Part shown: in pieces, positions 622 through 27,744 of the stretch | Layout: the number at the start of each line of letters is the position of its first letter | How positions within the stretch are numbered: the first letter of the stretch is position 1 | Source: Prevotella multiformis DSM 16608 | GTDB lineage: Bacteria; Bacteroidota; Bacteroidia; Bacteroidales; Bacteroidaceae | Direction: 5' to 3' | DNA: 64,000 bases | Assembly (NCBI RefSeq): GCF_000191065.1 | Contig: NZ_GL872282.1 | Coordinates: forward strand, 216,952-280,951 | Translations under genes and position numbers: made by a program | The notes under the pieces: generated by a model | The model's input: only the letters and a program-made list of their open reading frames with translations | The model's database searches: none | What the model was told of the DNA's origin: nothing

Positions 622-933
622 TTAAAGGAAGAATGAGCGCAGGATGGTGGCGGCGACAATCAGGAAGATGCACGCCCCGAACCACGAGGCGGCAGTCTTG
701 GATGTGTCGGGATCGCCGGACGAGAATTTCCCATACACTTTCACGCCCCCGATAAGCCCGACTACCGCGCCGATGGCGTAGATGAGTTTCGTGCCGGGGT
801 CGAAGTACGAACTCACCATAGAGGTGGCTTCGTTGATGCCCGCGATGCCGTTTCCCTGCGCGAAGGCGGAGGCGGTTGCGGCAACCAGAAGTGCCGCAGA
901 GAGGATAAGTTTCTGTCTGTTGTTCTTGTTCAT
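622..933 (-). CDS. traE: TraE, DUF4134 conjugative transposon protein
   Basis: A protein of 103 residues starting MNKNNRQKLILSAALLVAA. An N-terminal signal-like segment with an Ala-Gln cleavage site (ASAFAQ, about residue 26) is followed by two membrane segments (YAIGAVVGLIGGVKVYG and WFGACIFLIVAATIL). This is the DUF4134/TraE family, resembling VirB2-type pilin-like subunits in size and topology, although the pilin role is inference. It follows an unusually long 202-base spacer after traD. That spacer carries a copy of the recurring leader motif (1006-1019), so traE may be a separate control point in the operon. Confidence 0.88.
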   Translation of the reverse strand: MNKNNRQKLILSAALLVAATASAFAQGNGIAGINEATSMVSSYFDPGTKLIYAIGAVVGLIGGVKVYGKFSSGDPDTSKTAASWFGACIFLIVAATILRSFFL

Positions 934-1005
934 AAACTGTTCTTGTTTTGTGCCGTCCAAAGGGTGGATGGTCCTTTGTCGGGCGGTTGATACTCGATTA
1001 CTTTA

Positions 1006-1019
1006 CTTTGGTTTAGTGG
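1006..1019 (-). promoter_or_regulatory. Leader motif copy in the traD-traE spacer
   Basis: On the transcribed strand it reads CCACTAAACCAAAG, which is the motif CCACTAAATCCAAAG with one T missing. It lies about 73 bases upstream of the traE start. Related copies precede mobA, topB, the DUF1896 gene and a helix-turn-helix gene. It can pair, with one bulge, with the sRNA encoded at 25420-25513. Confidence 0.5.
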
Positions 1020-1135
1020 GTTGCCCGTTTGTTTCTACGGACTTGGGTGTGTCCGTTGCGAATTGGCTGTACCTTGTACCGCCGTGCGCGTGGGTGATGC
1101 CGTCTTACGTTTTCATTCTCATTCTTTTTTAGTCG

Positions 1136-1870
1136 TTATACATAGTTGCGGATGTCGAAGTTCTCAATACTGTCCGGGACGACAAAATCCTTTTTCGGTT
1201 TATTCTTCTTCAGCCGGATTTCGATAAGTCCCTTGATGCGGATGCTCATTTCAGACGAGCCGGTCATCAGCTTCTCGTACAGCTCCGTCCCTTCCATGTC
1301 GGTGAAGACCTTTGCCGCCCGCTCCCGTTCCGTCGTTGTCGCTTCCGGGTTCTTGGCGGTTCTGACCGCATCGTCTATCTCGTCGAAACTGCTTCCCGAT
1401 GCCCTCGGCGCGTCGGGCGTTTCTTCCTCCGGCTCGTCCTCCCCGAACTCCAGTTCCGAAGGCGTGAGGCTCGTGAAGGTTTCGTCGAGTTTATCCTCCG
1501 GGACTTGTGCGGGACGGGACACGGTTTCCGTGTTTCCGTCGTCAAAAGTAGTCTCTTCCTCCGTCAGCTCAATGCCTTTTTCCGAAGTGGCGGCTTCTTG
1601 CGTCGGTATGGCAGCGGTTGTCCGGGGCGATGCCATCCTGAAACGGCTCTTGCCGATGATGTCCGGGGTGTCTGCGGGCGGTGTGTCCCTTACCGTTTCG
1701 GGCTTTGCCGCCGTGCCGCCCAACGACCGCCACACTCCGGCTATGCTTCTTAGGAAGCGGACAAGTCTGGTTTCCATGATCCTGTCATAAAGGAGCAGGA
1801 ACAGGAACCACAGGTTGCAGCCGACCGATACGGTCAGCAGAATATCAGTCATGCTTATTGTTTCACTCAT
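1136..1870 (-). CDS. traD: TraD, conjugative transposon membrane-anchored protein
   Basis: A protein of 244 residues starting MSETISMTDILLTVSVG. One membrane segment lies at about residues 9-28. It is followed by a long acidic, Ser/Thr/Pro-rich linker with repeated EE and DE clusters, then a more ordered C-terminal part (EIDDAVRTAKNPEA and onward). It matches TraD of the CTnDOT tra operon, named from position between traC and traE and from composition. Its molecular role is not known to me. The upstream frame to 1945 was not used because it overlaps traC and lacks family-like sequence. Confidence 0.78.
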   Translation of the reverse strand: MSETISMTDILLTVSVGCNLWFLFLLLYDRIMETRLVRFLRSIAGVWRSLGGTAAKPETVRDTPPADTPDIIGKSRFRMASPRTTAAIPTQEAATSEKGIELTEEETTFDDGNTETVSRPAQVPEDKLDETFTSLTPSELEFGEDEPEEETPDAPRASGSSFDEIDDAVRTAKNPEATTTERERAAKVFTDMEGTELYEKLMTGSSEMSIRIKGLIEIRLKKNKPKKDFVVPDSIENFDIRNYV

Positions 1871-4135: not shown

Positions 4136-4150
4136 CCGCTAAATCCAAAG
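4136..4150 (+). promoter_or_regulatory. Leader motif copy just upstream of mobA
   Basis: CCGCTAAATCCAAAG ends five bases before the mobA ATG (4156). It differs from the complement of the sRNA segment (25455-25469) at one base, and that base can form a G-U pair. All 15 positions could therefore pair, over the ribosome-loading region of mobA. Confidence 0.55.
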
Positions 4151-4155
4151 TTTAT

Positions 4156-4581
4156 ATGAAAGAGAAAAGAAACAAGACCGGGAGAAATCCCAAACTTGAT
4201 CCGGCGGTATTCCGCTACACCGTCCGTTTCAACGAGGAGGAACACAACCGTTTCCTCGCCATGTTCGAGAAGTCGGGCGTTTACGCCAAGTCGGTTTTCA
4301 TCAAGGCGCACTTCTTCGGGCAGCCGTTCAGGGTGCTGAAAGTGGACAGGACGCTGGTGGATTACTACACCAGACTGTCCGATTTCCATGCGCAGTTCCG
4401 CGCGGTAGGCACGAACTACAACCAAGTCGTGAAGGAACTCAGGCTGCATTTTTCCGAGAAAAAGGCAATGGCGTTGCTCTACAAGCTGGAGCAACAGACC
4501 GTCGAACTCGTGAAACTGAGCCGTCAGATTGTGGAACTTTCAAGGGAAATGGAGGCGAAATGGTCGCAAAAATCAGTGTAG
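4156..4581 (+). CDS. mobA: MobA, relaxosome accessory protein
   Basis: A protein of 141 residues starting MKEKRNKTGRNPKLDP. It has a ribbon-helix-helix-like N-terminal half (FRYTVRFNEEEHNRFLAMFE, then SGVYAKSVFIKAHFFG) and a helical C-terminal part (NYNQVVKELRLHF and a coiled-coil tail). This pattern fits MobC/MobA-type accessory proteins that bind oriT and load the relaxase. The frame is open back to 4021, but that part lacks family sequence. It overlaps mobB by 22 bases, implying coupled translation. Confidence 0.85.
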   Translation: MKEKRNKTGRNPKLDPAVFRYTVRFNEEEHNRFLAMFEKSGVYAKSVFIKAHFFGQPFRVLKVDRTLVDYYTRLSDFHAQFRAVGTNYNQVVKELRLHFSEKKAMALLYKLEQQTVELVKLSRQIVELSREMEAKWSQKSV

Positions 4582-7904: not shown

Positions 7905-8285
7905 ATTTTCAGATTGGAGATGCTTGTTGATGGTGGTAATGACAAGCATGAGCAGATAGTTTTTCAGTTCTGTATCATCTTTTAGTAGTATGCTGTATTC
8001 TTCGGCGAAGATTCTCAACAGTCGGATTCTGAGTTTCGACATTTCCTCACCGAAAGGTATCTGCCGGTTTTCTTTCCAATACTCTATTGTTATAGAAGAC
8101 GCCAACCATTTGAACTCCGCTTTCATTTCCTTGCGGAGTTTCTTGAAACGGGTTTGCTCGGTGACAGGCGGGTCATTGTATGGCATCATATCAACCGGGT
8201 CATAAATGGATATGCAACCGATGCCGTAATCCATGATTACAGGCAAGTCTGCATCTGAATCTTTCTTATGTTTCTTCTTAGCCAT
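7893..8285 (-). CDS. Hypothetical protein paired with the AlbA-type protein
   Basis: A protein of 130 residues starting MAKKKHKKDSDADLPVIMDY. I do not recognise the family. It has a Lys-rich N-terminus, an acidic/aromatic stretch (YDPVDMMPYNDPP), then predicted helices with mixed charge (RFKKLRKEMKAEFKWL; RLLRIFAEEYSILL). No membrane segment or signal peptide is visible. Its start overlaps the end of the upstream gene by 8 bases, so the two are translationally coupled. The frame runs on to 8384, but only within that gene, so the downstream start is preferred. Confidence 0.7.
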   Translation of the reverse strand: MAKKKHKKDSDADLPVIMDYGIGCISIYDPVDMMPYNDPPVTEQTRFKKLRKEMKAEFKWLASSITIEYWKENRQIPFGEEMSKLRIRLLRIFAEEYSILLKDDTELKNYLLMLVITTINKHLQSENKNP

Positions 8286-9741
8286 CCTTCCTGTTGCCTT
8301 TTGACAAAATGATTTTTCCAGCTTCAGTAAGCCTGTATTTTTGGTTGCGGTGCTTGGGATTTTCCGGATGGGTTTGTTCGACAAGTCCCTCTCTCAATGC
8401 AGGATTTAGGTAACTGGTAAGGAAATTATCACGTCCCCTCAAAGATAAACGCTCCATGATTTCTTTCAACGGCAAAATATCATTTCCCAAAGCTGATACA
8501 AGCGACATTACTTGTCCTGCTACTTGTCCTGCTACTTGTCCTGTTTCTTGTCCTGTTTCTTGTCCTGCCACCTTATATCTGAAGACAAGTTTCACTTCAT
8601 TGGTTGTTATTTGATATTCAGGCTCCGGCAAATTAACCTTTTGACATTCTTCTATTATGAGATTTATGCCGCGTCCCCAGCTCTCCAATACTTTTCGCAC
8701 ATAAAGCGTGTCTGCAATTAAAGGATTATGGGGCTTTGAACCATGTTCGGATTTGATTTTATTCATATCCCATTCGGACGGAAACGAACCGGGATTCTCT
8801 ATTTCAACACGGTCATCATAGATGGCTATGGCTACCGAACCTCCAATATCACGGTAACTCCTGTGACATAGGGAGTTGATTACAGCTTCTCGTATAGCCT
8901 TATGCGGTATTTCCAAATGTTCCTCACGCTCCAATGCGTCCGTTGTTCCGGATAATGAAAGATGTCTGAACACAAAAGCCATTGCCTCGTCAAGCAGATG
9001 GAACAAGTTCCCGTGTACCCGTTTGTTGTCTATAAATACGGTTTTGTCTGTACCTCTGAATCGGGCAAGTCGCAGCAAGTTCTGCGGATAATGTACCAGT
9101 TTCTTTTTGGCGAACAATACGGCGGCTGCATTTTTAAGTACACCGCCTTCAAGAAGATTCAGTTTTTCAAGTATGATAGGAACTTCGTCACCTGTCGATT
9201 CGGGTAAACGTCCGTACTCTATTCCTAAACGTACCGTCTTGTGGATTTCCTCTTCATCCAAATCCGTAATCTTCAAATCGGTATTCGGGTAGGTTTCCCA
9301 GCTATGCCAGACTTTTTCATGCTGCAAAAGAAGTTCATTATACTTTGATTGTGGCATCGTTGTGGTCGCACTTTCCACCCGCATATATGGTCTTCCTTTA
9401 TAGCAGAACGGACGGTTGAGCCTTGAATCTTCAACACGAAAAACAATTACTTTCTTCTCACTGTCCGGCAGCGGTGCATAAGATATTTGTACCATTGCCA
9501 CAGGCTCCAACCGGTTGATCGCGTCCGCTATATCCCTCTTGGTCTTGTCGCTCACGTCTTGTCCGATGATTTTTTCCTTGTCGGTAACACCGAACAATAC
9601 CGTGCCGCCTTCTCCGTTAAGGAAAGCGCAAAGCGTTTCCATGCCACGCTCCAACTGTCCGGTGGTTTCCTTGAACTCCACCCGTCCGCATTCTTTTTCG
9701 GCTATCAGCCGTTTTACTATGTCGAGGTTGTCTATGCTCAT
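8278..9741 (-). CDS. Schlafen/AlbA_2 and GHKL-like ATP-binding protein (RecG-related annotation)
   Basis: A protein of 487 residues starting MSIDNLDIVKRLIAEKE. The N-terminal AlbA_2/Schlafen domain (residues about 1-130) is shown by GRVEFKET, then LCAFLNGEGGTVLFGVTDK. A GHKL-like ATP-binding domain (about 240-390) is shown by REAVINSLCHRSY, DDRVEIENPG and SWGRGI. A winged-helix tail (about 420-487) follows a GQ[VE][TA] repeat. Such proteins are often labelled ATP-dependent DNA helicase RecG-related, but no helicase motifs are present. They are common cargo of mobile elements; regulator and defence roles have been suggested and neither is shown here. It is coupled to the small gene downstream. 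Confidence 0.8.
   Translation of the reverse strand: MSIDNLDIVKRLIAEKECGRVEFKETTGQLERGMETLCAFLNGEGGTVLFGVTDKEKIIGQDVSDKTKRDIADAINRLEPVAMVQISYAPLPDSEKKVIVFRVEDSRLNRPFCYKGRPYMRVESATTTMPQSKYNELLLQHEKVWHSWETYPNTDLKITDLDEEEIHKTVRLGIEYGRLPESTGDEVPIILEKLNLLEGGVLKNAAAVLFAKKKLVHYPQNLLRLARFRGTDKTVFIDNKRVHGNLFHLLDEAMAFVFRHLSLSGTTDALEREEHLEIPHKAIREAVINSLCHRSYRDIGGSVAIAIYDDRVEIENPGSFPSEWDMNKIKSEHGSKPHNPLIADTLYVRKVLESWGRGINLIIEECQKVNLPEPEYQITTNEVKLVFRYKVAGQETGQETGQVAGQVAGQVMSLVSALGNDILPLKEIMERLSLRGRDNFLTSYLNPALREGLVEQTHPENPKHRNQKYRLTEAGKIILSKGNRKDG
8510..8570 (-). repeat. 12-base tandem repeat encoding Gly-Gln tetrapeptides
   Basis: Five copies of a 12-base unit (consensus on the + strand ACTTGTCCTGCT, two copies TTTCTTGTCCTG) encode GQETGQETGQVAGQVAGQV between the ATP-binding and winged-helix domains. 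Copy number changes would stay in frame, so the linker length can vary without inactivating the gene. Confidence 0.85.
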
Positions 9742-25369: not shown

Positions 25370-25385
25370 CTTTGGAATTTAGTGG
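25370..25385 (-). promoter_or_regulatory. Leader motif copy at the DUF1896 start codon
   Basis: On the - strand CCACTAAATTCCAAAG ends two bases before the ATG at 25367. It is the shared leader motif with one extra T and forms an inverted repeat with the seed of the sRNA immediately upstream (25455-25469). Confidence 0.55.
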
Positions 25386-25419: not shown

Positions 25420-25513
25420 GAAAGAAAAGGCACTCGGTATCCCTCCGAGTGCCACCACTAAATCCAAAGTATGAGTGTAATCCGGTATCGAAGAACAATT
25501 CATTACTCTGAAC
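25420..25513 (-). ncRNA. rteR: RteR-like small RNA
   Basis: A -7 element TACCTTTG (25527-25520) precedes a region ending in a strong intrinsic terminator: GGCACTCGG (25453-25445) pairs with CCGAGTGCC (25437-25429), followed by TTTTCTTT. The predicted RNA is about 90 nt. RteR of CTnDOT is a roughly 90-nt sRNA encoded just after exc that lowers tra expression; size, position (80 bases after the topB/exc stop) and strand all agree. Just before the terminator it carries ACUUUGGAUUUAGUGG, complementary to leader motifs before several genes of the element. The exact 5' end is inferred from the promoter. Confidence 0.78.
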
Positions 25514-25605
25514 AAGTGGCAAAGGTAGTGCAAATCGAAGACAATACGAAATAAACCCGTTTATTTCTATTGTTGAGGTGCAGCCTACTTTCTCAAAAGT
25601 TAATA

Positions 25606-27696
25606 CTATTTCTTCCGTCCTGAAAATTTCCTGCTCGTGTTCCTTTCGGGGAACACGAAAGTCGTGTTATAGTCCCCGTCAAAGGCGACTATGGCGTCGA
25701 AGCTCTTGCCCTGCTTGCTCTTGAAGCCTTTGAGCAGCTTCGTATGCCCGTCGGTGAGCAGGTCTTTGATCTCGTCATCGGAAAGGGTGCGGTTCGCTTT
25801 CAGGCGGAACACGGGCAGCCCGCACTCCGCGTTGTCGCAGCGTACCACCTTGCCGTAGAACTGCATGCTGCCCGTCCCGCACTTGGGACACTTGCAGCCG
25901 GAATCCCTGCGGGCGAACAGTTTGTCGCACGAGAGCAGTTCGGAGGTGATTTCGCGTGTGTACGCCTCTATCTCCCTGCGGAAGGTTTCGGCGGGCATTT
26001 CCCCGCGCTCGATGCGTGCCAGATTCTTCTCCCATTCGCCCGTCATGGTTACGTCGGCGATGCGCATCGTCTTCACGACCGAATAGAGGGCAAGCCCTTT
26101 TTCAGTCGGCACAAGCGATTTCTTGCAGCGTTCCATGTAGCCGCGCTTGAAGAGCGTTTCGATAATCGCCGCACGGGTGGCGGGCGTGCCGATGCCGCAG
26201 TCCTTCAACGCCTGACGGAGTGCATCGTCCTCTATGTCCTTGCCCGCCGTTTCCATTGCCGACAACAGTGTCGCTTCTGTATGCAGCGGCTTGGGTTTGG
26301 TCTTTCCCTCCGTGATGGAGCAGCCTTTCAGCGTCAGCGTGTCGCCTTCCCGCCAATCGGGGATGGAGGTTTCTTCCTTGTCCTCCACGCTATAGACGGC
26401 ACGCCATCCGGCTTGCCTGATGACGCTGCCTTTCACCGTGAACTCCACTCCGGCACACTCCGCCGTGACGGTGGCGGTGTCCTTGACGCATTTTTCGGAG
26501 AAAGCCTCGATCATGCGTCCGGCAACCATCTGATAGACGGTGCTGTCCTCTTTGGAGAGGAATAGTGGCTTCTCGCCCGTGACGAGCAGGGCGTGGTGGT
26601 CCGTCACCTTGCCGCCGTCCACGCTTCTGCGTGTCGGGACGCATTTCGGCTGCACCTTGCCTTTCCATTCGGGCAAAGCCCCGATGAAGGCGAGCAGCTT
26701 GGGGATTTCGGCGAACACGTCTTCGGGTATGTAGCGGCTTCCGGTTCGCGGATAGGTGATGAGCTTCTTCTCGTAAAGCTTCTGCGCGATTTCAAGCGTC
26801 TGTTCCGCCGTGAAGCCGTGCTTGGCGTTGGCTTCCTTCTGGAGCGTCGTCAGGTCGTACAGCAGCGGTGTTTCCTCCGTCTTCTCCTTGCGTTCGGCTT
26901 TCGTGACGGTGGCTGTGCCTGCCGACTTCACCTTATTATATAGTTCCGTCGCAGGCTCTTTCTCTTTCCACTTTTCGGAAGAGGAAAACTTCACCGTTCC
27001 TTCATCGCAGCCGTCCGTTGCGATATGGAGCTGCCAGAAGGCTTCGGGCGTGAAGCGGCGGTTCTCCCAATAGCGTGCGCACACCATCGCCAACGTGGGT
27101 GTCTGCACCCGCCCGATGGAGTACGTGCCGTGTCCGGCGGCGATGGAGAGTGCCTGCGTGCCGTTGATGCCCACGAGCCAGTCTGATTCGCTCCGCGCTT
27201 TGGCGGCAAGATAGAGGTTGTCGTATTTGCCGCCCGCTTCGAGGTTGCGCAGTCCCTCGCGGATAGCCTTGTCGGTAAGCGAGCTTATCCAGAGGCGGAC
27301 GAACGGGGTGGTGCATCCGGTATAATGGTAGAGGTAGCGGAAGATAAGCTCACCCTCGCGCCCTGCATCGGTCGCCACGATGATCTGTTCGCTTTCCTTG
27401 AATAGCCGGGCAACGGTCTTGATCTGCGCCACCACGCCGCTGTCGGGCTTGTAGCCCTTCTCCGTCTTTACCTGACGGGGGACGAGCGTGAAGGTGTCGG
27501 GAATGACGGGCAGATTGTCACGGACGAAACCGCGTATGCCGTAGCCGTCGGGCATGGCAAGCTGCACAAGGTGTCCGAACGCCCAAGTCACGGCGTAGCC
27601 GCCTCCCTCGAAATATCCTTCCTCTCTCTTTGTCGCGCCCACGATACGGGCGATCTCACGTGCCACAGACGGCTTTTCTGCAATGATTGTCTTCAT
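25606..27696 (-). CDS. topB: DNA topoisomerase III (Exc)
   Basis: A protein of 696 residues. A TOPRIM domain opens with IIAEKPSVAREIA and has ATDAGREGELIFRYLY. The active-site tyrosine lies in YPRTGSRYIP (near 314). A C-terminal zinc-binding motif reads CKCPKCGTGSMQFYG...CDNAECG. It is a type IA enzyme that relaxes DNA by passing single strands. In CTnDOT the equivalent gene is exc, last of the excision operon xis2c-xis2d-orf3-exc; the gene order here is the same. A leader motif copy lies 34-48 bases upstream of the start. Confidence 0.95.
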   Translation of the reverse strand: MKTIIAEKPSVAREIARIVGATKREEGYFEGGGYAVTWAFGHLVQLAMPDGYGIRGFVRDNLPVIPDTFTLVPRQVKTEKGYKPDSGVVAQIKTVARLFKESEQIIVATDAGREGELIFRYLYHYTGCTTPFVRLWISSLTDKAIREGLRNLEAGGKYDNLYLAAKARSESDWLVGINGTQALSIAAGHGTYSIGRVQTPTLAMVCARYWENRRFTPEAFWQLHIATDGCDEGTVKFSSSEKWKEKEPATELYNKVKSAGTATVTKAERKEKTEETPLLYDLTTLQKEANAKHGFTAEQTLEIAQKLYEKKLITYPRTGSRYIPEDVFAEIPKLLAFIGALPEWKGKVQPKCVPTRRSVDGGKVTDHHALLVTGEKPLFLSKEDSTVYQMVAGRMIEAFSEKCVKDTATVTAECAGVEFTVKGSVIRQAGWRAVYSVEDKEETSIPDWREGDTLTLKGCSITEGKTKPKPLHTEATLLSAMETAGKDIEDDALRQALKDCGIGTPATRAAIIETLFKRGYMERCKKSLVPTEKGLALYSVVKTMRIADVTMTGEWEKNLARIERGEMPAETFRREIEAYTREITSELLSCDKLFARRDSGCKCPKCGTGSMQFYGKVVRCDNAECGLPVFRLKANRTLSDDEIKDLLTDGHTKLLKGFKSKQGKSFDAIVAFDGDYNTTFVFPERNTSRKFSGRKK

Positions 27697-27729: not shown

Positions 27730-27744
27730 CTTCGGATTTAGTGG
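27730..27744 (-). promoter_or_regulatory. Leader motif copy upstream of topB/exc
   Basis: On the - strand CCACTAAATCCGAAG. All 15 positions can pair with the sRNA segment, one through G-U. It lies in the 59-base spacer between orf3 and topB, about 34 bases before the start codon. Confidence 0.55.

Follow-up and report, generated by a model that had tools for sequence, protein, structure and literature searches.

A 14-nucleotide box in the long spacer between traD and traE of a CTnDOT-like conjugative element of Prevotella multiformis DSM 16608 is, with a probability of roughly 0.84, the docking site of an rteR-like small RNA (sRNA) encoded by the same element, which would pair with the box in trans and act from traE onward while traA-traD escape. 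The stretch analyzed, referred to as the window, comprises 64,000 nucleotides (contig NZ_GL872282.1, positions 216,952 to 280,951) and holds the part of the element with tetQ, rteA, rteB, rteC, mobABC, the start of the tra operon, the exc (topoisomerase III-like) region and an integrase. Gene names were assigned by similarity, and the CTnDOT type was assigned from gene content, with tetQ-rteA-rteB, rteC, traA-Q, mobABC and the exc region all carried by a single element. A sequence-only reading had proposed that the tightly packed tra genes are interrupted by a 202-base traD-traE spacer with a tra-sense copy of a leader motif, at which an sRNA could uncouple traE and later genes from traA-traD. 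Both the spacer and the orientation of the motif are borne out by the following features.

622..933, reverse strand: traE, ATG at 933-931; DUF4134, with a weak TrbC/VirB2 pilin match below the cut-off
934..1135, reverse strand: traD-traE spacer, constituting the structured leader of traE; 202 nt here, 198-212 nt across the 22 leaders aligned
1006..1019, reverse strand: sRNA box CCACTAAACCAAAG, predicted duplex with the element's own sRNA of -20.5 kcal/mol with one bulge
1136..1870, reverse strand: traD, end at 1136

The other tra gaps measure 2 bases (traA-traB and traB-traC), 20 bases (traC-traD) and 10 bases (traE-traF), and traF and traG overlap. The range of 2-20 bases given by the sequence-only reading is valid for the window only, because gaps outside it reach about 55 bases (traM-traN), and the traD-traE spacer is still an outlier even against these. 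The Bacteroides -7 promoter consensus is TAnnTTTG; by eye, no such promoter was seen on the sense strand of the spacer, and no U-run terminator was seen within it.

The candidate partner of the box is an sRNA gene located just downstream of exc, with the following anatomy.

25606..27696, reverse strand: exc-like gene, topoisomerase III-like, ATG at 27696, upstream of the sRNA gene
25520..25527, reverse strand: -7 box TACCTTTG, Bacteroides-type, unchanged or with a single-base difference (TTCG) in most of the divergent copies compared
25422..25513, reverse strand: rteR-like sRNA gene, about 92 nt with an estimated 5' end; Rfam RF04181 match at 25426-25501
25455..25470, reverse strand: sRNA seed ACTTTGGATTTAGTGG, complementary to the boxes, its 3' part single-stranded in the fold
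25421..25453, reverse strand: intrinsic terminator GGCACTCGG-AGGGATA-CCGAGTGCC-TTTTCTTT, a perfect hairpin with a T-run

The predicted fold consists of a 5' hairpin, a linker with GAUUUAGUGG and the terminator, and six diverse members of the family fold with z-scores of -3.3 to -4.9, the linker being single-stranded in five of them. The Rfam rteR model (RF04181) aligns over its full length (model positions 1-84 of 84) with 40.5 bits and an E-value of 2e-5, fitting the terminator well and placing five non-standard pairs in the 5' hairpin. This match came from a lax-threshold scan of the sRNA stretch; a scan of the whole window at gathering thresholds gave nothing, as did a scan of the spacer at a lax threshold. 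Because the score is under the curated gathering cut-off of 72 bits, the sRNA is labeled rteR-like and not a member of the Rfam family. The cut-off is passed by L181 (96.3 bits) and by two copies in genome G242 (94.3 and 79.6 bits), and when 16 divergent copies were compared with RF04181, L181 scored above it and ten more matched below it, with E-values up to 0.54. The Rfam model captures a small part of the family: in genomes of the order, 1 of 149 has a match over the cut-off, while a model built from ten sRNA copies found the sRNA in 34 of the 43 genomes behind 49 of the relative loci described below, these two being different samples as the 43 genomes were chosen for traE. All 23 divergent copies that were mapped lie downstream of exc on the same strand at a distance of about 15 to 800 bases, with the rest of the sRNA sequence mostly changed, and the DUF1896 gene is next after the sRNA in 17 of them.

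The traE box belongs to a family, CRCTAAATCCAAAGTA and its relatives, that lies ahead of mobA, traE, traI, traN, exc and the DUF1896 gene. An ungapped search with up to three mismatches remained at chance level (4 matches versus 4.97 expected), and the family emerged when one inserted or missing base was allowed. One copy, at 25456-25469 on the forward strand, is reversed, antisense to the local genes, and lies in the sRNA seed; the others found in this way are listed here.

4137..4150, forward strand: mobA box CGCTAAATCCAAAG, before mobA (ATG at 4156)
25370..25384, reverse strand: DUF1896 box CACTAAATTCCAAAG, touching the DUF1896 gene start
27730..27743, reverse strand: exc box CACTAAATCCGAAG, about 30 nt before the exc ATG at 27696

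A further box precedes traI, and most of the boxes other than that of traE lie within about 30 nt of the start codon. The regular expression for the family has 4 matches in the window versus 0.15 per shuffled window (20 shuffles). Allowing up to two mismatches, CACTAAATCCAAAGTA has four matches in the 3.06-Mb genome, all within this element and one of them before traN outside the window, and at three mismatches five further matches appear outside the element. With the window's own seed, the predicted energies of the traA, traB, traC and traD leaders are -12.3, -9.4, -7.0 and -11.2 kcal/mol, versus -20.5 kcal/mol for traE.

The same distribution is found in relatives, which are loci of other species fetched with TraE (the best 80 of 540, not a random sample) that share descent and are not independent trials. 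With a narrow regular expression, 44 of the 80 have the box at a distance of 85-86 bases upstream of traE, and L055 has a related string closer to the gene; a wider expression is met in 73 of the 80 traE leaders versus 231 of 1600 random segments. The seven leaders without the wide expression, one of which (L018) shows a degenerate box by eye, all come from genomes in which the sRNA model found nothing. When 49 loci were screened for the sRNA, 40 had the box together with an sRNA in the genome, two had the box only (L047, L067), seven had neither and none had the sRNA without the box (Fisher p of 4e-7, inflated by relatedness, with L083 matching the wide expression weakly); a score of no sRNA in a genome is not firm here, because strict filters drop weak matches. 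Loss of the motif in relatives, which the sequence-only reading had named as evidence that would speak against it, was not observed at loci from sRNA-bearing genomes. For 44 CTnDOT-type loci, the window seed reaches -15 kcal/mol or better in 44/44 traE, 42/42 mobA, 42/42 traI and 40/40 traN leaders available. At the same threshold no match was found in the leaders of traA, B, C, D, F, G, J, K, M and O (33-45 each, L055 included), the strong seed matches at traA, traB, traC and traD in CTnDOT-type loci numbering 0/45, 0/44, 0/35 and 0/45. The absence of strong matches before traA-traD and their presence before traE, mobA, traI and traN back the proposal that an sRNA uncouples the two parts of the operon.

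These counts also bear on the notion that the box is an A-rich translation-initiation or leader element near start codons, its match to the sRNA being incidental. The box does touch the initiation region at traN, mobA, traI and DUF1896, and an enrichment of A before start codons is reported in PMC7366714, in a passage that does not show the organism. Ten other tra genes have no box, however, the seven loci without a regular-expression box sit in genomes where the sRNA model found nothing, and seed and boxes co-vary. An incidental match is considered very unlikely.

This co-variation extends across divergent elements. The seed change AGUGG to UGUGG is matched by the box change CCACT to CCACA. 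Genome G042 has the seed GGATTAAGTGG and carries CCACTTAATCC or CCACTTGATCC in the mobA, exc and DUF1896 leaders, and L048 and L049 have CCACTTAATCC before traI, traN and mobA and CCACTGAATCC, with one mismatch, before traE. In L065 and L084 the seed is GATCTTTTAGTGG and CCACTAAAAGATC is found at traE, as well as at traN in L084. Run lengths change in step as well, with seven T in the seed and seven A in the traE box of L054 and L076, and six and six in L060 and L068. The two elements of G242, with their rteR copies above the Rfam cut-off, have the seed TTTTTGTGG, and traE and traN, together with exc in one of them, have CCACAAAAA or CCATAAAAA, the changed box of both elements being CCACAAAAATT. 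A complementary stretch is present in the traE leader of all 18 elements with both an sRNA and a traE leader (-16.4 to -26.3 kcal/mol). Within this set, the sRNA of L055 can be placed no closer than the genome of its traE locus, and some seeds differ little or not at all. The seed is thus complementary to its putative targets and co-varies with them, as expected of a trans-acting base-pairing sRNA.

Exchanging seeds between elements leads to the same result. The traE leaders have a mean energy of -23.0 kcal/mol with their own seed versus -14.4 kcal/mol with the seeds of other elements. The own seed ranks first of 14 for traE in 9 of 13 cases and none of 20000 permutations was as good, although these values, like the Fisher value, overstate independence because the elements are related and some seeds identical. 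The mobA, traE and traN leaders average -20.7 kcal/mol (n=36) versus -10.0 kcal/mol for other leaders (n=136), the DUF1896 energies of OWN, G016 and G118 not being counted as they fall on the 5' end of the sRNA itself and not on the DUF1896 box. A single contig of genome G233 carries two conjugative elements in a span of 100 kb (L202-L206), and each of them encodes an rteR-like sRNA of its own that its boxes match. Own versus other seed gives -25.4 versus -12.3 and -24.1 versus -9.4 kcal/mol at traE, -21.6 versus -7.8 and -21.0 versus -9.7 at traN, and -19.0 versus -7.5 and -22.6 versus -9.8 at exc, while at mobA the box is found in one element (-26.6) and the other gives -9.8.

Several observations weigh against the docking-site explanation. 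The lengths of the A and T runs do not correspond for the traN box of L068 or the mobA boxes of L076 and L084, and the traE box of G118 is degenerate. No mobA box was found in L085, L073, G202, both G242 elements and one G233 element, the own seed for mobA ranks 5th to 8th in L060, L054, L068 and L073 and last in L085, an exc box is absent from G202, and a traI box from most of the distant elements. Two control leaders equal the boxes in energy, MobB in G016 (-19.8 kcal/mol) and TraF in L055 (-19.0 kcal/mol). The sRNA of the window falls short of the Rfam cut-off, and in L101, one of the six folds, the GUGG end of the seed is paired. The window's traE box is one base short, hence the bulge in the duplex, and it lies about 70 nt from the start codon, so that a direct ribosome block is less probable there than for traN or mobA. 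Among the departures from perfect complementarity, those that keep a G.U pair are not enriched (15 of 37; 15 of 22 transitions, with about 80% expected from composition).

The wobble tally is relevant to the possibility that the boxes are DNA sites for a DNA-binding protein encoded by the element, the copy in the sRNA region being another such site in reverse. Sites of this kind would also change together within an element, and since it is not enriched, wobble cannot separate RNA pairing from a shared DNA site and its use as proof of RNA pairing was dropped. The leader boxes are, however, sense-oriented before start codons, the reversed copy is situated in the seed of a folded and terminated sRNA at one syntenic place, and the complementarity often reaches 18-20 nt. 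Orientation, leader position and sRNA anatomy favor RNA over a DNA site, which is considered very unlikely.

The traE leader into which the sRNA would dock is structured, with three hairpins.

1058..1089, reverse strand: leader hairpin 1, GCG(GGC GUAC AAG GUAC GCC)CGC, four pairs with compensatory double changes
1037..1056, reverse strand: leader hairpin 2, ACGGAC/GUCCGU, conserved with little variation
952..984, reverse strand: leader hairpin 3, AAAGG/CCUUU, loop with ACYAUCCA, between box and start codon, conserved with little variation

The structure was taken from the window's fold and covariation was counted over the 22 aligned leaders, giving 26 doubly changed cells for the whole structure versus 13.2 in shuffles; the number of doubly changed pairs, four, does not exceed that of the shuffles (4.4), and a single pair in hairpin 3 cannot form in 21 of the 22 leaders. 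The window leader is mildly more stable than its shuffles (z of -1.5), and the 3' part of the spacer is strongly conserved even where TraD is at just 54-60% identity. The box lies between hairpins 2 and 3 and is unpaired in the consensus structure. In all 20 close and all 10 distant leaders the box is more open than the leader around it, partly owing to base composition, and in the window the difference is small (0.63 versus 0.59). A closing helix CGGGC/GCCCG around the box was dropped, being without covariation. A hairpin with an ACYAUCCA-like loop is recognizable in the traE leaders of the distant tra families of L054, L060, L065, L084 and L085.

RteR is reported to be a 90-nt trans-encoded sRNA giving discoordinate tra expression (PMC7366714) and a repressor of the tra operon (PMC9299015), and a conserved RteR is noted in a CTn341-like element (PMC5729914). 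In the proposed mechanism, the sRNA made next to exc would consist of a 5' hairpin followed by a short seed and the terminator, and the seed would base-pair with the traE box between the leader hairpins as well as with the boxes before mobA, traI, traN, exc and the DUF1896 gene. At traE, in the middle of the operon, the sRNA would repress either by remodeling the leader or by shutting off translation, with transcript termination or decay as the consequence, and would throttle the later part of the DNA-transfer machinery. As traA-traD have no box, their output would be spared and the operon would be split at traE, which fits the discoordination and tra repression reported for RteR (PMC7366714, PMC9299015). 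The same pairing could have the opposite sign if the sRNA activated or stabilized its target by opening the leader or blocking an RNase site, thereby raising pilin-like traE relative to traA-D. The structured leader and the position of the box far upstream of the start would suit such an activator, but the description of RteR as a tra operon repressor in PMC9299015 argues against it and activation appears unlikely.

The resemblance to RteR of CTnDOT (RF04181) comprises the size of about 90 nt, the CTnDOT-like element, the full-length Rfam alignment, the terminator loop GGAGGGAnACC and the reported discoordinate tra expression, and RteR presumably maps next to exc in CTnDOT too. The window's sRNA differs in its score (40.5 bits versus the cut-off of 72) and in a seed that departs from the Rfam consensus, the boxes differing accordingly. 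Trans-acting sRNAs of enterobacteria likewise carry the seed between a 5' hairpin and the terminator and target several mRNA leaders, but the present sRNA is encoded on and aimed at a mobile element, its traE site is far from the start codon, and it is not known to depend on a chaperone. The intercistronic control of the papB-papA pilin genes also involves a structured spacer within an operon just before a pilin or pilin-like gene and uncouples upstream from downstream genes, but pap does so through RNase processing. In F plasmids, control of conjugation genes by a small RNA is represented by FinP, which is a cis-antisense RNA to the one traJ leader that it overlaps, whereas some 24 kb separate the window's sRNA gene from the traE leader, and several leaders match its seed. 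FinP is named in PMC9299015. No RteR target sites are named in the literature surveyed, a survey that did not include the original RteR papers. RteR is already known and the docking site may have been proposed in those papers; what is new, as far as the literature surveyed goes, is the group of boxes, the way in which seed and boxes co-vary, and the structure of the traE leader.

Other features of the sRNA and the element include the motif GCCAC, which is usually kept at the 5' end of the sRNA directly after the -7 box (window 25511-25520, reverse strand) and is complementary to the end of the sRNA's own seed; it may belong to the promoter or cover the seed like a lid. The sRNA sequence is identical in four genomes (L159, L161, L162, L182), which suggests a recent spread of one element. 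A location of the sRNA downstream of rteC was discarded, as that region was read and the complementary copy is absent. Between rteC and the mob genes, an SLFN/AlbA_2 gene with a Fic-like C-terminal domain is located at 8278-9738 (reverse strand), with 12-base tandem repeats at 8496-8571 within its region.

Few sRNA targets are known in Bacteroidales. The boxes at traE, mobA, traI, traN, exc and the DUF1896 gene offer a concrete and testable explanation for discoordinate tra expression by RteR, in an element family that is found in many Bacteroidales and of which this member carries tetQ. It is an evenly balanced possibility that each CTnDOT-type element has a private sRNA-box code, in which seed and boxes would drift together, two elements in one cell would regulate themselves without cross-talk, and the traE leader would be both the universal member and the point at which the operon is split. 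In their co-variation, seeds and boxes resemble a naturally occurring collection of orthogonal sRNA-target pairs.
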